This document shows, in pieces, positions 17,867 to 28,317 of a stretch of 64,000 nt of DNA. The stretch is from Sphingomonas jatrophae (GTDB taxonomy: Bacteria; Pseudomonadota; Alphaproteobacteria; Sphingomonadales; Sphingomonadaceae): positions 1 to 64,000 of the forward strand of contig NZ_FOZG01000003.1 of assembly GCF_900113315.1 (NCBI RefSeq). Direction: 5' to 3'. The notes below the pieces were generated by a model that saw only the letters and a program-made list of their open reading frames with translations, searched no databases and was not told the DNA's origin. The first letter of the stretch is position 1; the number at the start of each line of letters is the position of its first letter. A program made the translations under genes and the position numbers.

Positions 17867-19219
17867 TCAGGACTTGATCTGTGGATTCAACCTGTTCACC
17901 AAGCTACCGTAAGCGCGCAGGCCGGACAGGGCGCTTGCCATCGCGAGTACGCCTGCGAACAGAGCGGTTATGGAGAGCGCCGGACCGATCCTTCCCGTGT
18001 TCCCGAACAAGGTCTGGTCGAGCGTCGGGATGATCGCCGCGCCGATCGACAATCCGACTAAACTGTTCGCTAGCAGGAACAGGGCCGCATTTGTCGCGCG
18101 CACGCCAGGCGGCGTTGCCAACTGGATCGCGGCCACCGAACAACCGAAATACCCGTTGAACAGGAAGGTCGCCACGGCGAACAGCGCGAGGACCGCCAGC
18201 GGCAATGGCATGAGGGGTGCAGCCACTGCGGGCAATGTCACCGCTGCGGCAAGCATGGCGACGGTGCGGAGATTGGCGTCGGCATGCCCCCGAAGGGTTA
18301 GCCGCTCTGCAAACCGTCCGCCGAACAGCGTTCCCGCGCTGCCGCATACCAAGAGGACGACGCCGAGCGCGCGCCCGGCCTCGCCGGCACCCATGCCGTG
18401 CGTGCGGATCAGCAGCGACGGATACCAGGCGCTCATGCCGTAACCCATGATCCCGAGCGCGACCGAACTCGCGTAGATCGCGAAGAAGGACCGCCGCTCC
18501 TGCCACAACCAGGCAAGTGTCGCACCGAGGCTGCCGACACGGGTCGGACCTCCATTGACGACTGGGCGCCGTCGCGCGGGCTCCCGCACCGCGGCGACGA
18601 GCGCGAGCACCAGGAATCCAGGCGCGGCGACGATGAGGAAGGTGGCCTGCCAGCCCCTCAGCGCCCCGATCACTGCCAGGATCACGCTACCGCTCGCTGA
18701 CACGGCTTCGATCACCGAGCCGCCGATCATCAACGCCATGCCCCCGCCGATGGTGATGCCAAGCGTGTAGATCGACATCGCCCGTGCGAGGCGTGCGGGC
18801 GGGAAAGCATCACTGAGAAAGGAGTGCGCTGCCGGAGAAAGCGTCGCCTCACCCAGGCCGACAAACGCACGTGCCACAAAAAGGTGAGCGAACGTACCCG
18901 CCAGGGCACAGGCGCCGGTGGCCAGGCTCCATACGACAACGCCGGCTGCGATCAGCCATTTACGCCCTACCCTGTCTGCCAGCATACCGAGCGGAACGCC
19001 TGCGACCGCGTAGAGCAATGCGAAGGCGAAGCCTTGCAATAAGCCCATCTGCACATTGCTGATGCCCAGATCGCGACGGATCGGATCGACCATCAGGCTG
19101 AGGATCTGCCGATCCGCGAAGGACAGGATATAGGCCACCAGGAACACGGCCAGAGCAAAGCGCGGACCGCGCCAGCCGGGTGACGACGCGCGCTCCGCCC
19201 CGGCCGGTGCAGCGGCCAT
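17867..19219 (-). CDS. major facilitator superfamily transporter
   Basis: The 450-aa, twelve-segment MFS protein is of the type often annotated spinster-like or hexuronate-like. The first helix carries 'YILSFADRQILSLMVDPI', and the loop 2-3 motif is 'GMLADRVGRKWLIAAGV'. Its ATG overlaps the stop of the upstream TonB receptor (TGATG), so the receptor and inner-membrane carrier are co-translated and probably move the same solute. Confidence 0.88.
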   Translation of the reverse strand: MAAAPAGAERASSPGWRGPRFALAVFLVAYILSFADRQILSLMVDPIRRDLGISNVQMGLLQGFAFALLYAVAGVPLGMLADRVGRKWLIAAGVVVWSLATGACALAGTFAHLFVARAFVGLGEATLSPAAHSFLSDAFPPARLARAMSIYTLGITIGGGMALMIGGSVIEAVSASGSVILAVIGALRGWQATFLIVAAPGFLVLALVAAVREPARRRPVVNGGPTRVGSLGATLAWLWQERRSFFAIYASSVALGIMGYGMSAWYPSLLIRTHGMGAGEAGRALGVVLLVCGSAGTLFGGRFAERLTLRGHADANLRTVAMLAAAVTLPAVAAPLMPLPLAVLALFAVATFLFNGYFGCSVAAIQLATPPGVRATNAALFLLANSLVGLSIGAAIIPTLDQTLFGNTGRIGPALSITALFAGVLAMASALSGLRAYGSLVNRLNPQIKS

Positions 19220-22200
19220 CAGAAGGCCTGCTTCACGGCAACGGTGATCACGCGGCCACGAGGATCATGCACGATCGGGTCGAAGCCGAGGTTCAGCTGG
19301 GCGACGGGCGGATCACGATCGAAGATGTTGATCGCGCCGACATTGATCTCGGTAGCCTTCGATCCGACCAAATCGACGGTCAGCGTATATTGCAAGTCGA
19401 AGGTGTTCCACGCCTTGATGCGGCTCTCGGTCGTGCCCGTCCGGTCGTTGCGATAGGCGCTGACGTAGTGGCCGAGGACGTTGATGCGGTGCGCACCGGT
19501 GGCGAAGCTGGTACCATATTCCACGCGGTCCTGCGGCAGGGAGCGGCCGAGATTGTTGAAGTTGACGCTGCCGAGGCCGCTGATCGGCGCCGCGCCGGCC
19601 GCCAGCTGAATCGAGTATTTTGAGAAGTGCGTCCATGCGGCGGACGCCTCAACCGTGCCAATGTCTGTCTCAACGGTGTAGCGGCCTGACACGTCGAGGC
19701 CCTGCGTCTTCACCGAGGATGCGTTGATGAAGTTAAGCCGCACGCCTTGCAGCCCGCCGCTGATATCGCGCGTGACGCGCTGCTGCGCCGGCGTGCCGGT
19801 ACGCCCCGCAAGCGTATCGGCGATCGCCTGATCGATAATCGGCTGGGGGTTCTCCTTGACGATCAGATCCTTGTAATCGAACGAGAAGAAGTCGGCCGAC
19901 AGCTCCAGCCCACGCACGGGCCGCAGTGTGGCGCCCAGATTGTAGTTGGTCGACTTTTCCGGCCGGAGATCCGGATTGCCGAAGGTCTGCGTGTTGGCGA
20001 AGACGAAGGCGCCGCCATCGTTGACCGAGGGCTGCGCCGATTGGACGGCGACCAGCTGATAGACGGAGGGAGCGCGAAAGGCCTTGCCCCACGACGCGCG
20101 AACCGACAGCTCGTCGAAGGGCCGTGCCAGCACCGCCACCTTGGGGCTGAAATTGCCGAAACTGTCGAGATACTTTTCGTAGCGGCCCGATAGCTGCACC
20201 TCGACACGTTCTCCGGCCGGCACCTTGAGCTCGCCGAAGATCGACAGGTTCTCCTGCTTGCCCGAGAAATCGGGCGCCTGGCCGAGGTTGATGAGCTCGC
20301 CCGCATTCACCAGGTCGCCCCAGTCATGCCGGAACGTGCTGCGGCGATATTGCACGCCGAGTGCGGCAAGCACGGTGCCGCCGCCATATTGGAAGAGCTC
20401 GCCGCTGGTCAGACCGTCAAGCGTGACAAGCGACGTCTTGCCGTGAAGGTCGGTGTATCCGATGAGGCTGTTGATCAGCTCAGGGCTGTTCTGGGTGCCG
20501 GTGCCAAGCCGCGCGGAGCCGAACGGGTTGAAATAGCGGCAGGCACCCACGCCCGGCCGCCCGGTCGCCGGATCGCAGCCGGGCCCACCGAGGCCGCGCA
20601 GCGCATTCGTGAGAGGCGTCAGAAGTGCATCGGGCTTGTTGTAGCGGGCGAGCTGCTGGCTGTAGGTCGCGTTCGTGCTCCAGGTCCACGTACCCGCCAG
20701 GGGCCCGCTCAGCCCGCCTGCGACGCGGAACGTGTCATAGTTGAAGGTCGCGATCGAAGGCCCGTAATCCGATCCGAGCAGCCGCCCCCTGAAACGGACA
20801 TCCTCGCCGAACGGATTGTCAGGATGACCAGCGGGCACCACCGGCGAGATGGCGAGGATCGGGAAAGACGGCGACGCTGCCGTTTTCGAGTAGGTGTTGG
20901 CGTAACCAGCCTCCAGATTGAGGTCGATGTCGTCACCGAGCTCGGCATTGAAAGTCGCAAAGACCTGCGCACGACGCTCCTTCGGGATAAGGTCAAAAAA
21001 TTCAGAGAAGTCATAGCGACAGAAGGTGTCCGCGGGCGACGTCTTGAAACTATCGGGGAAGGCCGCGTTCAGGCAGTTCGGATCGGGCCGGAACGCGCGC
21101 AGGCTCGGCACGAAGTAGGAGCCCGGCTGGCCATAGCTGGACACCGAATGCCACGCCGGGCGGCCGAACGTGCTGGCGCGGGAGAAGCTGCGCTCGCCGG
21201 TCGCAAGCCGCGAACTGCCGTAATAGGAGGCAGCGAGGACCAGATCGCCGCCCAGCAGCTTCGTGCCCACAATCCCTTCCAGATCGATCTGGCGGGCACC
21301 GTCGAGGAAATTATAGCGTCCGGACACCTCCGCGCCGTCCACTCGTCGCCGCGTGATGAAGTTCACCACACCCGCGACCGCATCGGAGCCGTAGGTGGCG
21401 GCGGCGCCGTCCTTCACGACGTCGATCCGCTGCAACGCAATCAGCGGCATGATCGAGTTGATGTCGGTAAAGGTGCTGCCGTCGCCTGCCGCCACGGCGC
21501 TCAGCGTCTGCCGCCGTCCGTTGACCAGCACCAACGTTGAGCCGAGGCCCAGATTGCGGAGGTTGAACTGCGCGGTGCCCGAGGTGAGCGGCTGATTGAG
21601 CTGATCGACCTGCGCCTCCGAGCCAGCATTGCCGGGAAGCGCGCGCACCAGTTCGCTCGGATTCGAGATCGCCCGTGCGGCCAACGTTGCGAAGCCAATC
21701 ACATCGATGGGCGACGCAAGCGACGATTGCTTGATCAGCGACCCGGTGACGACGATCTCGCTCTCGGGGACAGCGGCAGCGGCTTCATCAGCCACGACAG
21801 CTGGCAGAGGCGCGGATTGGGAGGGCGCGACAGACGGCTGGTCCGGTTGCGCATAGTTCATGGCGATCACACGCGGCGCGCGGCGAATGACAGCCGAGTC
21901 CGGCCCGGTGGGCACCGCATGTAGCCCGCTCCGATCGAGCAGCTGACGGAGCGCGTTGGCACCCGTCATCTCGCCCTTGACCGCGTTGCCCCGCAAACCC
22001 GCAACATCGTCATGGGCGAAAAGCAGCTGCAGCCCCGTCTTGCGCGCGACATCCTTCAACGAGAGCTTCAAGGCCTGCGCCGGGATCGTGAAAGTCTGTG
22101 GAGCGCTCAAAGCCTGCGCAGGTGCGGCTCGGGGGCAAACTGCGACAGCGATTGGTAGAACGTGCGCGGCCACAAGCAGGCGCTTTTTCAAACCAGACAT
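19219..22200 (-). CDS. TonB-dependent receptor with N-terminal STN signalling domain
   Basis: The protein is about 993 aa. After a signal peptide ('LLVAAHVLPIAVAVCPRA') comes a secretin/TonB short N-terminal (STN) domain at residues about 40-110 ('FTIPAQALKLSLKDVARKTG'). A plug follows ('EIVVTGSLIK', 'QRIDVVKDGAAATYGSDAVAG'), then a large barrel ending in Phe. STN domains contact a FecR-type anti-sigma factor across the periplasm. The divergent neighbours are an ECF sigma factor and FecR, so this is a transducing receptor whose ligand probably induces its own gene. ATG 22200 (M-S-G-L-K-K-R) opens the signal peptide. Confidence 0.9.
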   Translation of the reverse strand: MSGLKKRLLVAAHVLPIAVAVCPRAAPAQALSAPQTFTIPAQALKLSLKDVARKTGLQLLFAHDDVAGLRGNAVKGEMTGANALRQLLDRSGLHAVPTGPDSAVIRRAPRVIAMNYAQPDQPSVAPSQSAPLPAVVADEAAAAVPESEIVVTGSLIKQSSLASPIDVIGFATLAARAISNPSELVRALPGNAGSEAQVDQLNQPLTSGTAQFNLRNLGLGSTLVLVNGRRQTLSAVAAGDGSTFTDINSIMPLIALQRIDVVKDGAAATYGSDAVAGVVNFITRRRVDGAEVSGRYNFLDGARQIDLEGIVGTKLLGGDLVLAASYYGSSRLATGERSFSRASTFGRPAWHSVSSYGQPGSYFVPSLRAFRPDPNCLNAAFPDSFKTSPADTFCRYDFSEFFDLIPKERRAQVFATFNAELGDDIDLNLEAGYANTYSKTAASPSFPILAISPVVPAGHPDNPFGEDVRFRGRLLGSDYGPSIATFNYDTFRVAGGLSGPLAGTWTWSTNATYSQQLARYNKPDALLTPLTNALRGLGGPGCDPATGRPGVGACRYFNPFGSARLGTGTQNSPELINSLIGYTDLHGKTSLVTLDGLTSGELFQYGGGTVLAALGVQYRRSTFRHDWGDLVNAGELINLGQAPDFSGKQENLSIFGELKVPAGERVEVQLSGRYEKYLDSFGNFSPKVAVLARPFDELSVRASWGKAFRAPSVYQLVAVQSAQPSVNDGGAFVFANTQTFGNPDLRPEKSTNYNLGATLRPVRGLELSADFFSFDYKDLIVKENPQPIIDQAIADTLAGRTGTPAQQRVTRDISGGLQGVRLNFINASSVKTQGLDVSGRYTVETDIGTVEASAAWTHFSKYSIQLAAGAAPISGLGSVNFNNLGRSLPQDRVEYGTSFATGAHRINVLGHYVSAYRNDRTGTTESRIKAWNTFDLQYTLTVDLVGSKATEINVGAINIFDRDPPVAQLNLGFDPIVHDPRGRVITVAVKQAF

Positions 22201-22374
22201 CGAAACCCTCCCCACCGGAGCACCGGTCACTTGCCGGAGCTCTCAATAGGGAAGACGTGCCAGCCACACCGATCCGCAATGCCAACGAACAAATTTCTTC
22301 TTGTCGCTCAATTGACAGCAGGTAGGGCACGCGCGGATCACTGCTTGTAGAACGGATCTGAGGGGGCCTGACGG

Positions 22375-22902
22375 GTGGGCAAGCCAGCTGCAGCGGCAGC
22401 GCCACCGGGTGTGGAGGGAGCACTTCACGCCTATGACAGCATCGTCCGCTTTGTGCGCGCACGCTTCCGCCGTACGGACGAAGCGCAAGACGTGGTACAG
22501 GACGCTTTTCTGCGCCTAACCATAGCGTCACGGCGCGACGATATACGCGATCCGGTAGCGTTTCTGCGCACGACGGCGGCCAACCTCATCCGGGATCGCG
22601 TGCGGGCTGATGGTGTGCGTGCGATCATCACCGAAGATGACCAAACAGGTCATATCGCGTGCCCGAATCCCTCTGCCGAGCGGCACATTATCGGCCACCA
22701 AGCTGTAGCGATCGTCGAGGCCGCCCTCGCGGAGCTCCCTATGAAGCGCCGTGCGGCCGTGGTCCTGTCGCGGATCGATGGCGTCGACCACCGCACCATC
22801 GCAGCGCAGCTGGGTATCAGTATGTCGATGGTGGAGAAGCATGTGCGGCTCGGCCTCGATCACATTAGGCGCCACCTAGCGGAAGCCGAGGAGCGGCCAT
22901 GA
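22375..22902 (+). CDS. ECF sigma factor, FecI type
   Basis: The 175-aa protein has sigma region 2 at residues about 15-80 ('FRRTDEAQDVVQDAFLRL') and region 4 at about 115-165 ('LPMKRRAAVVLSRIDGVDHR', 'AAQLGISMSMVEKHV'). It is followed by fecR with an ATGA overlap and is divergent from an STN-bearing TonB receptor, the standard surface-signalling trio. It probably activates the receptor promoter in the 174-bp divergent gap. Confidence 0.88.
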   Translation: MGKPAAAAAPPGVEGALHAYDSIVRFVRARFRRTDEAQDVVQDAFLRLTIASRRDDIRDPVAFLRTTAANLIRDRVRADGVRAIITEDDQTGHIACPNPSAERHIIGHQAVAIVEAALAELPMKRRAAVVLSRIDGVDHRTIAAQLGISMSMVEKHVRLGLDHIRRHLAEAEERP

Positions 22903-23762
22903 GCATCGCACCCGCATCTCCGACGCGAGAGGACGAGCTTGCGGCGAGCCTGGCCGCGCTGAGCGATAGCCCGATCGCTCAAGAAGCTCGTGCATATGCC
23001 GAGACGTTGGCGACCCGACGCGAGCAACGCAGACGGGCAGCTAAAGCGGCCGCTCCACTGGGTGCCGCCTTGACCCTGCTCCTGGTGGTGAGCGGTACAG
23101 TCGGCCTGCGCCATCAGACTTCCGCCGCCGCAGAGCCGACCATCTATGCGTCACGCACGGGCCAAATTCGCACTCTGCTGCTGGAGGATGGCTCGACGCT
23201 GACGCTCGATACCGCCAGCCGCGTTGCCGTACGCATGGAGGCCGGCGCCCGACGGCTCAGCCTGATAGAGGGGCGAGCGGCGTTCGACGTTGCTCATGAC
23301 GCGAACCGGCCGTTCAGCGTCACCGCAGGGAACATGACGGTCACCGCACTCGGAACCCGTTTCTCCGTAACGGCGCTCCCGAGCGATACCGCCGTTACGC
23401 TGGTGCGCGGCCGGGTCCGCGTCGCCGCCGTGCGAGCGGGGGAGGTCACGCTCACGCCCGGACAGAGCACGGAATTGCGCAAGGACAAGAGCTTGGCGCC
23501 TCCACATGCGACGGTGTCGGGAGACGCACTCGCTTGGCAAAAGGGAGAACTTGATTTTCGCAACGTGCCTGTTGCGGCAGCGCTGGAACAGGCCAACCGT
23601 TATTTCGGCGTGAAGATCGCCTTGTCCGATCCGCACATCGGTCAGCGGCGGATAGACGGCCTGTTCCGCGCCGGCGACTCCAGAGCACTGATCGCGACGC
23701 TCTGCTCATATTTCGACCTCAAGGTCATCTCCCGGCGTGAGAACCTTGTCACACTGGGCTAG
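22899..23762 (+). CDS. FecR-family anti-sigma/signal transducer
   Basis: The 287-aa protein has an N-terminal cytoplasmic region, one membrane segment at residues about 50-70 ('APLGAALTLLLVVSGTVGL'), a periplasmic FecR domain ('EDGSTLTLDTASRVAVRMEA', 'ALGTRFSVTAL') and the C-terminal FecR extension ('FRNVPVAAALEQANRYFGVK') that binds STN domains. The ATG overlaps the sigma-factor stop. Its last codons overlap by 4 bp the end of the convergent serine recombinase. The C-terminus looks complete, so the accessory element did not truncate it. Confidence 0.88.
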   Translation: MSIAPASPTREDELAASLAALSDSPIAQEARAYAETLATRREQRRRAAKAAAPLGAALTLLLVVSGTVGLRHQTSAAAEPTIYASRTGQIRTLLLEDGSTLTLDTASRVAVRMEAGARRLSLIEGRAAFDVAHDANRPFSVTAGNMTVTALGTRFSVTALPSDTAVTLVRGRVRVAAVRAGEVTLTPGQSTELRKDKSLAPPHATVSGDALAWQKGELDFRNVPVAAALEQANRYFGVKIALSDPHIGQRRIDGLFRAGDSRALIATLCSYFDLKVISRRENLVTLG

Positions 23763-25351
23763 GCAGTTGATGTCGCGAGGCGAACTGGGAAGCCGAGCTG
23801 AGCGGAGGCGAGTTCGCCACCTTCCACAACTATCGTAACGAGTTCCGGGCGCAGGAACGCGTGAGGGAGCGTTCGCTTCACCTGAACGGGCTTGATTCCT
23901 TCACGCGCGGCTAGTGCTGCAAGCGAGGGGACAGCACCCGATCGCAAATCTTCAAACCAGCTTCGCGCGCGAGCAACGAGCGCGATCATGGCCGCGTCAG
24001 GCTGCGCGTCTCGCTTGTCTCCGACGATGAGTGCGAGGCTGGCCTTGCGCCGGCCAATCGTGGCGGGCGCAAGGATGGTGAGCGTCTCATGGTTCAAGCC
24101 TTCGTCGATCGCAGTCAATCGCAGCTCGATCGTGACACTACCTTCTCCGATAGTGAGGCGGTTGATGAGGTTGGTCGCCAGCGCGCGCTTGCTGACCGGA
24201 TCACCTCGCCGCAGCTTCGCTACCAGCATCGCGGCGGATGCGAGCGCAGCCGGTAGATCCTCGCAGCCGATCAGGTCACCAGCGATTGCCTCTGCAGTGC
24301 CGAGCTTGTCGACGATGGTGCCGACAACCAGCTTTTCCAACTCAGCCGCTGGCACCCGCATGCGCTGCGGCTCGGGCGTGCCGACAGGCGTCGCATAGTA
24401 GCGGTAGGTCCGCTTGCCCTTCCGGGTGTGGGTTGAGGTGAACCGAACGCCGTCTGCGGTGTAGACCAGCCCGGCCAGCATGGCCGAAGGGCCAGCCTTG
24501 CTGCCGTCGATGGTCTTGCGCCGGTTGGCGGTGAGCACCGCCTGCACCTGGTCGTAGAGCTTGCGCTCGACGATGGCGGGGTGCTGCCCCGCATAGCGTT
24601 TGCGGCCGTGCGGGATCTCACCGACGTAGAGCGGACTTGAGAGGATGCGGTACATGGAGCCGCGGGTGATCTTGCCCTTTCCCCCGCCCGCCCGCTGCTT
24701 GCTGCGGAGGCCCGCGGCATAGGCATCTTCCACCAACGCGTCGACAGCCTTCAGCTTCAGGTAGCGCTGATAGAGCCAGCGCACCTGCTCGGCTTGCGCC
24801 TCGTTCACAGTGAGCGTACGACCCGCCGGCTCGTAGCCGAGCGGCACCTGCCCACCCATCCACAGTCCCTTGGCCTTGGATGCCGCGATCTTGTCGCGGA
24901 TGCGCTCGCCAGTCACCTCGCGCTCAAACTGCGCGAAGTACAGAAGCACGTTGAGCGTTAGCCGGCCCATGCTGCTGGTCGTGTTGAACGCCTGCGTCAC
25001 GCTGACGAACGACGTGCTTTTGGCATCGAACAGCTCGACCATCTTGGCAAAGTCGGCGAGGCTCCGGGTCAGCCGATCGACCTTGTAGACGACGATGATA
25101 TCAACCAGGCCGGCGCCAACGTCTGCTAGCAGCTGCTTCAGGCCCGGTCGCTCCATCGACCCGCCCGACCAGCCGCCATCGTCGTAGGCCGTCGGCACCA
25201 GCTGCCAGCCCTCATGCTTCTGGCTGAGAACGTAGGCCTCGCACGCTTCACGCTGCGCATGAAGCGAGTTGAAGCTCTGCTCCAACCCTTCCTCGCTCGA
25301 CTTGCGGGTATAGACGGCGCAACGCAGCAGCTTGCCGCCTCGATCATGCAT
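23759..25351 (-). CDS. serine recombinase (resolvase/invertase family, large)
   Basis: The protein of about 530 aa has an N-terminal resolvase catalytic domain with the active-site Ser in 'CAVYTRKSSEEGLEQSF', the conserved 'DDGGWSGGSMERPGL', and 'VVYKVDRLTRSLADFAKMV'. A recombinase domain follows ('IAASKAKGLWMGGQVPLGY', 'RGSMYRILSSPLYVG'). Such enzymes cut and join DNA through a 5'-phosphoserine and move prophages or islands. ATG 25351 (M-H-D-R-G-G-K) is preferred over 25393. It overlaps the DUF2924 gene by 8 bp and ends 4 bp inside fecR. Its att sites could not be identified. Confidence 0.88.
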   Translation of the reverse strand: MHDRGGKLLRCAVYTRKSSEEGLEQSFNSLHAQREACEAYVLSQKHEGWQLVPTAYDDGGWSGGSMERPGLKQLLADVGAGLVDIIVVYKVDRLTRSLADFAKMVELFDAKSTSFVSVTQAFNTTSSMGRLTLNVLLYFAQFEREVTGERIRDKIAASKAKGLWMGGQVPLGYEPAGRTLTVNEAQAEQVRWLYQRYLKLKAVDALVEDAYAAGLRSKQRAGGGKGKITRGSMYRILSSPLYVGEIPHGRKRYAGQHPAIVERKLYDQVQAVLTANRRKTIDGSKAGPSAMLAGLVYTADGVRFTSTHTRKGKRTYRYYATPVGTPEPQRMRVPAAELEKLVVGTIVDKLGTAEAIAGDLIGCEDLPAALASAAMLVAKLRRGDPVSKRALATNLINRLTIGEGSVTIELRLTAIDEGLNHETLTILAPATIGRRKASLALIVGDKRDAQPDAAMIALVARARSWFEDLRSGAVPSLAALAAREGIKPVQVKRTLPHAFLRPELVTIVVEGGELASAQLGFPVRLATSTA

Positions 25352-25868
25352 GGCGAACAGCCTTGGCGCGACTCGTTCGTGCGTCACGCACATTCGAGCT
25401 GGCGGCGGCTCGCTCGTGCCGCGGCTTCACGCGGCGGGTGCGGAGACCGAAGAAGAGCAGGCCGTTCCAATGGGTGCCGGTGATCGCCTTGGCCACCGCT
25501 GAGAGCGAGGCGTAGCTTTCGCCGTTCCAGCTGAAGCTGCCCTCCCCTACCTCCACGACGTAGGTCGTGCCCTGATAGACCTTCACCAGCTTGGCGCCGG
25601 GCACGAGGCGCGTGGAGGCAGGCAGGTCGGCGGCCGATGCGCTCGCAGCAGCGGAGTGGACGACGCCGCGCTTACGGTCGCGCTCGGTGCGCGCGATCAC
25701 CTGCAGATCGCGCGCCAAGGCAGGCGAGATGTCACCATGCTGGTCGACATGCTCCTTCCAGCCGATCGCAAGCTTCAGGAGGGCCACGGTCATGTCCGGC
25801 GGTGCCGGCACGCTGAACAGCTCGACCCAGCGTTCCCGCAACGCCACGAGCTCACGCGTCACGCGCAT
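25344..25868 (-). CDS. DUF2924 protein
   Basis: The 174-aa protein has 'ELVALRERWVELFSVPAPPD' at the N-terminus, 'LARDLQVIARTERDRKRG', then 'RLVPGAKLVKVYQGTTYVVE' and 'YASLSAVAKAITGTHWNGLL'. That is the pattern of DUF2924, a family commonly encoded directly before serine recombinases in alphaproteobacterial islands. It may bind DNA or act as a directionality or accessory factor, but no activity is established to my knowledge. ATG 25868 overlaps the upstream gene by 10 bp; the upstream open frame is inside that gene. Confidence 0.8.
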   Translation of the reverse strand: MRVTRELVALRERWVELFSVPAPPDMTVALLKLAIGWKEHVDQHGDISPALARDLQVIARTERDRKRGVVHSAAASASAADLPASTRLVPGAKLVKVYQGTTYVVEVGEGSFSWNGESYASLSAVAKAITGTHWNGLLFFGLRTRRVKPRHERAAASSNVRDARTSRAKAVRHA

Positions 25869-27322
25869 GCGAGCAGCGCCTCCGCCATGGTGGTGATGCG
25901 CGGCGCCCATGCGAGCTTGGCCAGCCAGTCTTGAGGGATGCCGCTCGGACCGTAAAGCGCACCGGCGAGCTGACCCGCGATCGCTGCCGTCGTATCCGCA
26001 TCGTCCCCTAAGTTGGCAGCGGTCAGCACGGCCGAGCGGAAGTCGCCGGTGCGACCGACACACCAGAACGCCGCTTCCAGCGAGTGCGCCACGTAGCCGG
26101 AAGACTTGATCTCATCGCGTGCCTTGCCACGCCAGCTGCCGCGGACGATGCCGGCGATCACCGGATCAAGCGTCACATCACGCCTGCGCATCACCTCGCT
26201 GCGCGGTTGGCCTTCGATCGCATCGGCAAGGATGTCGGCATAGGCGATGCAGGCATCCACCGCCTGAGGCGCCGCATGCGTTGTTCGGCTCTGCTCGGCA
26301 GCCACGCCCCGCAGCATCGCTCGGTCGCGGAAGTGGCGAACAGCAACCGGTGCCAGCCGCATCAGTGAGCCGTTGCCCGCGCTCATCGGATCGGTGGAAC
26401 CTGCAAGAGGATTGCCGCTGCGCTGGTAGCGCGCGAGCGCCTGCCGGGTGGTCACACCGATGTCGAAGCAGGTGCCGGTGCAGCTATAGGTGCCGAGCTC
26501 ATGCCAGCTGACGAACCGGTTCATCAGGTCGGTCGCATCAAACTCAGGATGCTCGATGAGGCTATCGGCGAGCGCCAGCGCCATGGCGGTATCGTCGGTC
26601 CACTCGCCCGCCTTGAGCTTGAACGGGCCGCCCCCGACCATGTCGGTGAGGAGCGGCTTGCTGTCGCGCCGGGCAAACTCAAGCGTTGTGCCCACCGCGT
26701 CACCAACCGCCAAGCCGACAAGCGCTCCAACGGCCCGATCCCGCACAGCAACGTCGCCTTGTTCCGGTGCCATCTCACGCACGGGCTTGAGCCTCTGCAC
26801 ATAGCCTTCCTGACCGTAGGTCTCGATCGCGCCTGGCCGTGCGTCCCGCACGAGTGAGATGGCGACATTAGGCGTGACGCCCAGTTCGATCAGCAACCGA
26901 GCCGCGATCGTTCCTGCCCGGCCGAGCCCTCCCTTGCAGTGAGCGACCACGTCGAACCCATCGCGGATGCGAGCGCGGAGTCCCTCCCCTACCCGCACCC
27001 ATGCGGCCTCGAAGTCAGGTCCTGGCACCGACACATCCTCGATCGGCAGGTGCAGCCAGTCCATGTGTCTGCCGACCACCTCCTGCCCAAGATTGTTCAC
27101 ACCCAGCGCCTCAAGCTCGTGTGCTTCGACAAGCGTGACGACCGCTGACGCACCCCAGGCCCGCACCGCATCGAGATCCACTCCAAGGTCACGGTCCCAT
27201 GCGCCGGTCATGGCACGCGGCTGCTTCTTGCCGGGGCAGAAGGTGATGCCGATGCGGCCCATGTTCTTGCCGGTGGAGACACTGGCGATTGCAAGCGGGT
27301 GCGTGTGACTGGTTCTGAGCAT
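25859..27322 (-). CDS. fusion of a dual-specificity-type phosphatase and an ADP-ribosylglycohydrolase
   Basis: The protein is about 487 aa. Residues 1-170 resemble CDKN3-like cysteine phosphatases: 'GRIGITFCPGKKQP', general-acid region 'HLPIEDVSVP', and the P-loop H128-C129-x5-R135 ('HCKGGLGRAGT'). Residues about 195-480 are an ADP-ribosylglycohydrolase with metal motifs 'GEWTDDTAMALAL' and 'LGDDADTTAAIAGQLAG' plus 'GLAVGDAVGTTLEF'. Key residues of both domains are present. ATG 27322 (M-L-R-T-S-H-T-H) is chosen from family N-termini. It is the first gene of an overlapping operon with DUF2924 and the recombinase. Roles in removing ADP-ribose or phosphate modifications are inferred. Confidence 0.82.
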   Translation of the reverse strand: MLRTSHTHPLAIASVSTGKNMGRIGITFCPGKKQPRAMTGAWDRDLGVDLDAVRAWGASAVVTLVEAHELEALGVNNLGQEVVGRHMDWLHLPIEDVSVPGPDFEAAWVRVGEGLRARIRDGFDVVAHCKGGLGRAGTIAARLLIELGVTPNVAISLVRDARPGAIETYGQEGYVQRLKPVREMAPEQGDVAVRDRAVGALVGLAVGDAVGTTLEFARRDSKPLLTDMVGGGPFKLKAGEWTDDTAMALALADSLIEHPEFDATDLMNRFVSWHELGTYSCTGTCFDIGVTTRQALARYQRSGNPLAGSTDPMSAGNGSLMRLAPVAVRHFRDRAMLRGVAAEQSRTTHAAPQAVDACIAYADILADAIEGQPRSEVMRRRDVTLDPVIAGIVRGSWRGKARDEIKSSGYVAHSLEAAFWCVGRTGDFRSAVLTAANLGDDADTTAAIAGQLAGALYGPSGIPQDWLAKLAWAPRITTMAEALLACA

Positions 27323-27615
27323 ATGATCCACGAATCGGAAGATGTTGGCGGAGAAGCGTGGACATAGCGCGTCCAAGTCGTTTGTACAGATGACGCTATC
27401 GTCAGCGCTCGGAAGTCCTCAAAGAGGAGGCATCCTCCACTGTGCATGATCCATCAAGGAGATTGCTGGGCGCGTGATAACAGACACCAAACCGTTTCCA
27501 TAACCTATAGACGCTTCCATGCCGGAGTGATCCAGGACACTCCGCTGAGATCAGCAACAGTTCGCACGATCACTTTTGCACTTGCAATCTGCCGCACGTC
27601 CGACGAACGTAGCTG

Positions 27616-27841
27616 CACTCCTGAGATACGCAGGAGTGGGGCGTGGAAACCTCAACGAATGAACTCGGTCGCGGACACAAGTCCGAGGCCGGGTGGCATG
27701 CGCGCATGTCCAGCCGGCTTGCCGGTAAAGGCGCATGCGCCTGTACATTCGTCAGGTTTCCAACATCCGGCTTCGGCCGTCGCCCCGAGAGGAACATAGG
27801 GGCGACTGGATCGAGCTGATCAGGTCCCCCGAACAGGGGGA
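27616..27841 (+). ncRNA. candidate structured RNA leader with a multibranch fold
   Basis: The 522-bp stretch 27323-27844 has no convincing gene but a run of strong inverted repeats. A hairpin lies at 27616-27638 (CACTCCTG/CAGGAGTG). A long outer stem pairs 27644-27661 with 27746-27762 (9 bp plus 7 bp around a small internal loop). Inside it are hairpins 27672-27685 (CGGAC/GTCCG), 27688-27718 (GCCGG..TGGCATG/CATGTCCA..CCGGC) and 27729-27742 (AGGCG/CGCCT). A C(UUCG)G tetraloop hairpin is at 27768-27779, then 27780-27805 (TCGCCCC/GGGGCGA), and the last hairpin holds the Shine-Dalgarno of the next ORF. Strand is assigned from that ORF. No known riboswitch class was recognised. Confidence 0.5.
27825..27841 (+). 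promoter_or_regulatory. hairpin sequestering the ribosome-binding site
   Basis: TCCCCC (27825-27830) pairs with GGGGGA (27836-27841) around GAACA. The 3' arm is the Shine-Dalgarno (AGGGGGA), 4 nt before the ATG at 27845. Translation should therefore depend on opening this stem. Confidence 0.55.
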
Positions 27842-27844
27842 AAC

Positions 27845-27964
27845 ATGACCTACAAGAATGAATTCAAGGAGGTACTCGCCCTGGTGGTTGAGCACGCCAG
27901 TCCGCTGATGTCCACGAAGGCAGGCACCTCTACCACGCCGGCGAAGAAGGCTGCGAAGCGATGA
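27845..27964 (+). CDS. 39-residue hypothetical protein, Lys/Ala-rich C-terminus
   Basis: ATG 27845 opens a 39-codon frame starting M-T-Y-K-N-E-F-K-E-V and ending 'TPAKKAAKR'. It has a strong Shine-Dalgarno (AGGGGG) placed in a hairpin, and its TGA overlaps the ATG of the next gene (ATGA), which supports real translation. An amphipathic helix is possible at residues 5-17; no membrane segment or homology is recognised. It may be a leader peptide controlling the downstream membrane protein or a small functional protein. Confidence 0.55.
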   Translation: MTYKNEFKEVLALVVEHASPLMSTKAGTSTTPAKKAAKR

Positions 27965-28317
27965 TCAGCGGCCCATTCATCCGGGAGAAGACGTGGGCCG
28001 TCTTCGAGAACCCCGCCAACGGCTACCGGGAGGCGATACCACGGCGTGCATGGCTTTGGATGCTGCTGTTCGGAGTCTTTTACCTGATGATCAGGCAGTC
28101 TTGGAAGCAAGCTGGCGCCATCCTGGCTATTGCCTTCGTTGCAACATTCATATGCGTGTATCTGGGCGTCTTCGGAGCGATCCTCTGGCCACTAATCATG
28201 ATCAGCATATGGATCTTCTACACCACCAATATCCGCACGCTGCTCGCACAAGATTATCTTCGGCGCGGGTGGAGCGAGGTCGACCTCGAGGAAGCCACCA
28301 TCGAACTCCCCTACTGA
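27961..28317 (+). CDS. small membrane protein of unknown function
   Basis: The 118-aa protein has about three hydrophobic segments: 'AWLWMLLFGVFYLMI' (residues 31-45), 'AGAILAIAFVATFICVYLGV' (51-70) and 'AILWPLIMISIWIFY' (73-87), followed by an acidic soluble tail. It is translationally coupled to the 39-aa ORF by ATGA. The family is not recognised; its N-terminus resembles small membrane proteins of conjugative or phage origin that keep 'RE..W..FENPANGYRE' motifs, but no role can be given. Confidence 0.65.
   Translation: MISGPFIREKTWAVFENPANGYREAIPRRAWLWMLLFGVFYLMIRQSWKQAGAILAIAFVATFICVYLGVFGAILWPLIMISIWIFYTTNIRTLLAQDYLRRGWSEVDLEEATIELPY

Follow-up and report, generated by a model that had tools for sequence, protein, structure and literature searches.

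What is the dense cluster of inverted repeats that lies directly in front of a small two-gene unit in Sphingomonas jatrophae: a regulatory leader of those genes, a small RNA acting elsewhere, or the DNA of a mobile element? The cluster occupies positions 27616-27844 of the window, by which we mean the whole stretch of 64,000 nucleotides that was analysed. An initial annotation, made from the letters alone, had read it as a cis-acting riboregulator that hides the ribosome-binding site of the genes behind it, with mobile-element DNA as the alternative.

A structured leader in front of two small frames

Inverted repeats are indeed present over about 225 nt, and the plus strand at 27600-27860 has a predicted folding energy of -130.9 kcal/mol (z -7.55), with none of 200 shuffled versions equally stable; the minus strand of the region gives z -5.11. 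The leader elements and the two frames behind them all lie on the plus strand. The long interrupted stem noticed at the outset corresponds to two helices supported by covariation, P1 (27645-27652 with 27754-27761) and the variable P2 (27655-27661 with 27746-27752), whose 3' strands together occupy 27746-27761. It had been said to enclose three hairpins, but it encloses only two: P3 (27667-27690; 27667-27670 with 27687-27690 by covariation, and an inner stem, 27672-27676 with 27681-27685, in the predicted fold only) and the covarying P4/P5 arm (27696-27738; P4, 27696-27703 with 27731-27738; P5, 27714-27717 with 27722-27725), within which lies a conserved internal loop, GCAUGUCCA/UAAAG. Overlooked at that stage was a pseudoknot between GGGUG (27691-27695) and CAUCC (27764-27768), both strands of which are supported by covariation. 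The C(UUCG)G hairpin, here P6, exists as described (27769-27778, covariation). It is followed by two hairpins derived from the fold: P7 (27779-27806; 27779-27786 with 27799-27806), whose 5' arm CGCCCC is an anti-Shine-Dalgarno (anti-SD) strand, and P8 (27825-27841), in which TCCCCC (27825-27830) pairs with GGGGGA (27836-27841) over the Shine-Dalgarno, as had been claimed; the distance to the ATG at 27845 is three bases. In the predicted ensemble of the window copy the Shine-Dalgarno bases in P8 have pairing probabilities of 0.92-1.0. Equally unseen before was the 5' arm UGGGGCG (27637-27643), which by covariation is an alternative partner of the anti-SD strand and competes for 27781-27787. At the 5' end the predicted fold has a further hairpin, P0 (27616-27638; 27616-27623 with 27631-27638). 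A hairpin at this position is present in other copies by eye, uncounted, and TGAAAG occurs there in 38 copies (of a total not given), from which the window copy deviates. About 55 nt upstream of the RNA core, a -35 promoter-like element, CTTGCA, can be read from the sequence (27581-27586).

The two-frame layout proposed for the downstream genes is also present. A 39-aa frame (27845-27964) begins right after the leader, and Pfam offers nothing for its product even at E up to 1; the overlapping second frame (27961-28317) encodes a 118-aa protein with a likeness to DUF2628 under Pfam's cut-off, and none of 148 other genomes of the family has a match to it at E up to 1e-4. On the strength of computation, 27616-27844 is thus confirmed as a predicted structured 5' leader of an mRNA.

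Upstream of the leader and divergent from it, a minus-strand gene (25859-27376) encodes an ADP-ribosylglycohydrolase fused to a DSP-type phosphatase domain; further along the same strand come a DUF2924 gene (25344-26063) and a large serine recombinase (23759-25393). The recombinase operon had been placed beside the leader: it is nearby, but not adjacent. A FecR protein is encoded at 22899-23762, preceded by a frame (22375-22902) whose position would suit a sigma factor, and a TonB receptor is encoded at 19219-22230 on the minus strand. No leader copy is found at this FecR region (22375-23762), although a sigma factor with FecR is the commonest cargo of the leader elsewhere.

A pseudoknotted core supported by covariation

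Across a model-fitted alignment of 97 sequences covering P1-P6 and the pseudoknot, 95.5% of the pair cells are standard pairs and 750 cells are altered on both sides, with a covariation of 0.552 against 0.158 in shuffled and 0.045-0.078 in slid versions. A largely separate set of 73 sequences gives 95.0% paired cells and a covariation of 0.468, and a 14-sequence MAFFT alignment, which was not fitted to the model and carries a hand-drawn structure, still gives 90.7% and 0.337 (0.143 shuffled). Two of the alignments, A4 and A5, have a few loci in common under different names. Absence of covariation in homologues had been named as an observation that would refute the idea of a structured RNA; covariation is strong, and the window leader is a real, conserved RNA.

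In the 97 sequences the individual helices are paired in 94.1% (P1), 91.9% (P2), 88.7% (P3), 98.7-100% (P4/P5 arm) and 91.0% (P6) of cells, with changes on both sides in six of the seven counted pairs of P1, all six of P2 and, in some sequences, all three of P6. The pseudoknot, GGGUG before P4 with CAYCC after P1, reaches 99.6%; its fourth pair is found as UA, CG, AU and GC, and it is fully paired in 118 of 119 parsed copies, where shuffled versions reach at most 110. The strict parser behind this count missed 49 of 168 copies, whereas the model-fitted alignments count all aligned rows. An outer helix included in our first model (core bases 1-6 with ACAYCC) was dropped, being fully paired in only 9 of the 119 copies against a shuffled mean of 9.8, and its place was taken by the pseudoknot and the pairing of the 5' arm with the anti-SD strand. 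The internal loop of the P4/P5 arm reads AUGUCCA..AAAG in 168 of 170 copies; this is partly by construction, since the search pattern that retrieved loci L083-L200 itself held CATGTCCA and AAAG.

Phyletic distribution

The genome of the window carries three copies of the leader, of which only the present one had been noticed. A BLAST search with its 229 nt picks up 5 of 59 genomes, the source genome among them. R1, a covariance model built from 14 core sequences, has hits in 106 of 298 family genomes (at most five copies in any one of them), 38 of 196 from the order and 26 of 289 from the class (the source genome being counted in each). A pattern scan of a genome collection recovered at least 118 stretches (L083-L200), mostly from Sphingomonadales with some from Caulobacteraceae and others, and R1 matches both the first 80 (80/80 of L083-L162) and the remaining 38 (38/38 of L163-L200). 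A second model, R2, matches 33 of the 289 class-sample genomes, with up to seven copies in one. In a sample of the phylum R1 finds 20 of 299 genomes, weakly outside the class; when the 11 outside-class genomes were rescored with R2, their best matches lay between 45 and 67 bits, and two of the outside-class loci, with cut flanks (L241 and L244), remain unchecked by eye. Both models were built from some of the loci later counted with them and their E-values are rough.

Among 72,556 plasmid records nine carry the leader, all of Sphingomonadales genera, and two of these copies lie upstream of or overlap a recombinase gene. None of 50,697 phage records carries the window RNA, and viral contigs contain no exact match to its pattern. 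The comparisons drew on 184 locus coordinates; duplicated loci and five matches that run off a contig (L091, L109, L149, L154, L195) were left out, and 170 distinct cores were kept, 168 of them in the first switch, pseudoknot-parse, promoter and Shine-Dalgarno-pairing tests. Three of the cut matches (L091, L109, L154) belong to contigs of a single Sphingopyxis MAG that break off inside the RNA, which suggests that near-identical repeated copies break the assembly.

A core with a promoter-like element and diverse downstream genes

The promoter-like element seen in the window recurs: NTTGC is found 46-66 nt upstream of the core in 117 of 168 copies, against 5 of 168 in a control window, and from this fixed spacing each copy seems to start its own transcript. 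On the downstream side, 138 of 155 copies have a frame of 80 aa or more whose start is no further than 180 nt away, as opposed to 89 of 155 on the divergent side. The 166 downstream frames, selected by an automatic rule that takes the longest one nearby and so includes some spurious ones, fall into 97 clusters, of which the largest has 38 members and no other has more than six. We call the proteins of this largest cluster FecI-like sigma factors because two of them are so annotated and by inspection by eye; on four annotated plasmids the leader is followed by a sigma factor and FecR, and on two of them also by a TonB receptor. After removal of 25 frames judged spurious by eye, the 38 sigma factors and frames shorter than 50 aa, 104 other proteins remain, for which Pfam, PADLOC and PHROGs reveal no common function: Pfam assigns 47 families, the largest being SHOCT with six members; PADLOC assigns 60, with at most two members each; and PHROGs assigns 98, the largest of which has seven members and is unnamed.

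Of 631 core pairs that are at least 85% identical, and that are not mutually independent, 477 have unrelated downstream sequences and 114 homologous ones, while 40 fall between the score limits; in most of seven aligned core pairs similarity drops at the edges of the core. Since cores this similar precede unrelated sequence, it seems that the core travels, or undergoes conversion, separately from the gene.

Several individual loci deserve mention. In L019 and L085 near-identical leaders lie upstream of a gene for a membrane protein; Pfam detects GGDEF in two of the downstream proteins, which are probably the products of these two loci. The third copy in the genome of the window (L018:7228-7558) is followed by a frame that ends after 22 codons, within a part resembling a signal peptide; beyond the stop the frame stays open over a longer distance. 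At L163:2490-2983 two leaders point apart with 211 nt between them, each with its own outward gene. In L145, L152 and L166 the 3' part of the leader is replaced by similar coding sequence, which we take to be TrbI-like, and the core therefore seems truncated there.

Two competing partners of the anti-SD strand

The C-rich strand 3' of P6 (CGCCCC, CGCCUC), the anti-SD strand, can pair with the Shine-Dalgarno region, as it does in P7. In 170 leaders and against 300 shuffles, its covariation with the downstream Shine-Dalgarno region has a z-score of 14.7 and that with the 5' arm (UGGGGCG, CGAGGCG) one of 7.5, whereas the control combination of 5' arm and Shine-Dalgarno region is at -1.3; these permutation tests pick the best stem in each search interval, in observed and shuffled data alike. 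Both stems reach at least 5 bp in 151 of the 170 leaders, but only 79 of these share at least 4 nt of the anti-SD strand. Two covarying partners that exclude each other on one strand seem, as far as sequence comparison can tell, to embody the logic of a translational switch.

Leaders were typed by their P7 loop into type A (GAG-GG-ACATA; n=55), to which the window copy belongs, and type B (n=115). In the window copy the RNAfold minimum-energy state has P7 and P8 closed; with the 5'-arm helix forced, RNAfold pairs the 3' arm of P7 with the 5' arm of P8, so that P8 dissolves and the Shine-Dalgarno is freed. A relay of this kind between P7 and P8 is unsupported as a general rule of type A (z -1.4). 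The open state of the window copy, at -114.1 against -132.0 for the minimum, lies 17.9 kcal/mol higher (the pseudoknot not being modelled), which makes a simple equilibrium switch implausible without kinetic control. The same forcing was applied to 93 leaders with a usable start. Among the 40 type B leaders with a start within 45 nt, mean Shine-Dalgarno pairing drops from 0.78 to 0.54 under this constraint, with a decrease of more than 0.3 in 13 and an increase of that size in none; in type A (n=29) the mean is 0.49 before and 0.48 after, with such a decrease in four and such an increase in three. Shine-Dalgarno pairing as such exceeds that of control genes only modestly (0.65 vs 0.58, p 0.006; at least five of six bases paired in 42 of 98 leaders vs 263 of 817 control genes, p 0.04). 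The switch is thus only partly supported in the leader type of the window.

Relationship to sRNA-Xcc1 and to RNAs ahead of phage antirepressor genes

sRNA-Xcc1 (Rfam RF02221) is reportedly a trans-acting RNA, going by the title of the 2011 paper of Chen et al., a reading unlike the cis leader reading put forward here. In published accounts it is an 88-nt RNA by RACE and a small RNA by Northern analysis in Xanthomonas (PMC2996969); it precedes symE in the Xanthomonas integron cassette of widest distribution, for which a divergent regulatory mechanism is proposed (PMC12444791); it is present in seven copies in a Xylella genome (PMC12189769) and 15 in one strain of Aeromonas salmonicida (PMC8780938); and RF02221 is among the families whose structure Rfam has revised (PMC11701678). 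The literature searched yielded no paper on the window RNA and none on a role of sRNA-Xcc1 as a cis-acting pseudoknotted leader.

No Rfam 15 family, riboswitch classes included, overlaps the window RNA, either at the gathering score or with E relaxed to 5, and none overlaps the RNA at gathering in 40 further loci. RF02221 in particular has no match in the window RNA, nor any at E up to 0.001 in its genome; elsewhere it occurs in 43 of 200 genomes of a phylum sample, 30 above the cut-off, and in none of 14 control genomes. Intermediates nonetheless link the two RNAs, since they match both R2 and RF02221: L222 scores 69.8 bits with R2 and 37.2 with RF02221 (gathering 53), L276 scores 30.3 and 55.8, respectively, and L259 also matches both models. 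The overlap is limited, R2 finding 8 of 30 RF02221 loci at E up to 1 (best 0.00037; most unmatched) and RF02221 finding one of 20 R2 loci, L222, at E up to 0.1. The earlier statement that no known class is recognised consequently holds for the window copy against Rfam 15, but not for its wider kinship, as the intermediates tie it to sRNA-Xcc1. Judged from these model comparisons, the window RNA is related to RF02221 without being a formal member.

The 87-nt Rfam model starts in mid-structure and spans only the 3' half of the architecture. The missing 5' half lies upstream of it: the upstream 120 nt tested against the P2/P1 3' strand give z 8.4 (n=30). By eye sRNA-Xcc1 resembles the window RNA in the order of elements, with a 5' strand of the GGGGC-NN-GAAAACC type, a variable P2 and P3, a GGGNG x CNCCC helix, a P4/P5 arm and then a reading frame. 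The helix closing the P4/P5 arm is of the GGNNGGGNG x CNCCCNNCC type, the window having GGGUG x CAUCC as its counterpart; a crude parser finds all five pairs in 25 of 30 RF02221 loci, and with the 5' half included this helix becomes a pseudoknot. The two differ in the internal loop, which is AUACAA-like in 28 of 30 sRNA-Xcc1 loci (by a loose expression) and AUGUCCA in none, against AUGUCCA/AAAG in the window. They differ also in the expression platform, which involves the P2-P1 3' strand and the Shine-Dalgarno in sRNA-Xcc1 but the 5' arm, anti-SD strand and Shine-Dalgarno in the branch of the window. In sRNA-Xcc1 loci covariation links the P2/P1 3' strand to the Shine-Dalgarno segment (z 6.2, n=30), whereas in the alphaproteobacterial set (n=170) the same strand and the downstream segment show no more than chance pairing (z -0.4). 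Of 30 RF02221 loci, 24 have a frame of 60 aa or more beginning no further than 90 nt downstream, compared with 15 on the divergent side.

RNAs of the sRNA-Xcc1 type also occur in phages, one matching 22 phage records and another three, of which four were examined. In Vibrio phage VHML such an RNA (45.7 bits, below cut-off) precedes an antirepressor, and in Acinetobacter phage 4316 one precedes a KilA-N protein. Escherichia phage PhiR5_2 has two in a row (L284:216-922), each before an annotated antirepressor; here CAAAUAAGGAG, which immediately precedes the antirepressor start and looks like the P2 5' strand, is the complement of CUUCUUAUUUG within the RNA. For Stenotrophomonas phage Smp131 the match falls within the frame annotated as an anti-repressor, and this case is therefore unfit for a simple leader unless the start is annotated too far upstream. 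Among loci L251-L280, some frames behind sRNA-Xcc1-type RNAs resemble phage Rha, KilA-N or antirepressor proteins by eye.

Mechanistic interpretation and alternatives

The suggestion of a cis-acting riboregulator is borne out by the covariation, the promoter-like element at fixed spacing, the frame close downstream and the anti-SD strand with its two covarying partners, and a cis-acting translational leader has a high probability. Its most likely identity is an uncharacterised riboswitch-like leader; regulation itself is only inferred, because there is no transcription or regulation experiment and no transcript, probing or reporter data. Translational riboswitches in general combine a covarying pseudoknotted core in the 5'-UTR with a strand common to a core helix and the Shine-Dalgarno hairpin. 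The window leader shares these features, together with its own promoter-like element, and its family meets the riboswitch criterion of a conserved, covarying, structured 5'-UTR core. It differs from them in that no ligand or binding data exist and in that its genes are mostly unrelated, partly orphan and define no pathway; the gene set names no ligand. A ligand-binding riboswitch, though unproved, is the single most likely type of trigger.

The explanation that we favour, with some confidence, is that the RNA forms the beginning of its own mRNA and works as a translational switch in cis, with a pseudoknotted core and a small ligand as the likeliest signal. P1-P6 and GGGUG x CAYCC would fold as a domain around the conserved internal loop of the P4/P5 arm. 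Once this core is stabilised, the 5' arm UGGGGCG could capture the anti-SD strand CGCCCC, and in the window copy the freed 3' arm of P7 would then pair with the 5' arm of P8, releasing the Shine-Dalgarno; with an unstabilised core, P7 and P8 would form and hide it. A small ligand near the P4/P5 loop and the pseudoknot is in our view the likeliest stabilising signal, which would make the RNA a riboswitch, and the decision would probably be taken during RNA synthesis. The structure, the covariation, the two partners of the anti-SD strand, the spacing of the promoter element and the association with downstream frames are computed, while switching, its direction, kinetic control during transcription and the existence of a ligand are inferred.

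The same anatomy would serve if a protein, encoded by the host or a mobile element, bound the leader and stabilised one of its two states. Only the trigger would differ, and the likelihoods of the two readings overlap. A single trans-acting factor could serve many genes, in keeping with the 166 mostly unrelated frames in 97 clusters and with the strong conservation of the internal loop (again partly by construction), but no candidate protein is at hand, and the diversity of the products makes control by the gene's own product unlikely; we regard a protein trigger as somewhat improbable. A further precedent is the c4 RNA of phage P1, which acts by an antisense mechanism after its leader is cut. 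The sRNA-Xcc1 branch is similar to c4 in having leader strands that are the complement of a Shine-Dalgarno segment in front of an antirepressor, and dissimilar in Rfam family, the c4 antisense RNA of phages P1/P7 being RF01695 (PMC12189769). By analogy, the leader might be cut and its 3' fragment pair with the Shine-Dalgarno segment of the adjacent gene and silence it. Such a fragment corresponds in length and position to the published sRNA-Xcc1, whose RACE ends delimit 88 nt (PMC2996969) and whose Rfam model begins in mid-structure; the covariation of the P2/P1 3' strand in the 30 sRNA-Xcc1 loci and the CUUCUUAUUUG/CAAAUAAGGAG complementarity in PhiR5_2 fit as well. This complementarity also fits a cis switch, however, and in the branch of the window the candidate was rejected, the complementarity being at chance and the anti-SD strand having a covarying 5'-arm partner instead, so that we consider antisense action unlikely.

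That the RNA acts in trans, with the downstream gene incidental, is the published reading of sRNA-Xcc1, for which the title of Chen et al. reportedly speaks. It can also draw on the Northern detection of a small RNA in Xanthomonas (PMC2996969). Yet the anti-SD strand covaries with the adjacent Shine-Dalgarno, as the P2/P1 3' strand does in sRNA-Xcc1 loci, and 138 of 155 alphaproteobacterial copies have a frame close behind them, which leaves trans action highly unlikely. Least credible of all is a mobile DNA element or recombination site whose structure acts as DNA. Mobile-element DNA is unnecessary to account for the structure; yet similar cores with sharp edges do precede unrelated genes, as in the 477 of 631 pairs of similar cores and most of the seven aligned ones, and there are plasmid copies, including the two at recombinase genes. 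One-sided changes to G-U pairs, the fixed promoter element and the link to the Shine-Dalgarno point instead to RNA.

Biological implications

Beyond the single leader, and with doubt slightly outweighing confidence, we tentatively propose that the window RNA belongs with sRNA-Xcc1 to a single uncharacterised riboswitch superfamily with two branches, spread through Pseudomonadota and their phages, with one pseudoknotted scaffold, two loop subtypes that may have different ligands and two independent expression platforms. One branch would control phage antirepressors, and the other single accessory genes, FecI-like sigma factors among them. The two internal-loop subtypes are sharply separated, which makes the search for a ligand tractable. 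A common RNA that Rfam lists merely as a short sRNA, first seen in Xanthomonas, thus looks like the 3' portion of a much larger pseudoknotted leader with translational control over the adjacent gene. If so, well over a hundred mostly unexplained accessory genes (166 frames) and several phage antirepressors answer to one unknown kind of input, and finding the signal would tell when such genes, and perhaps prophages, switch on.
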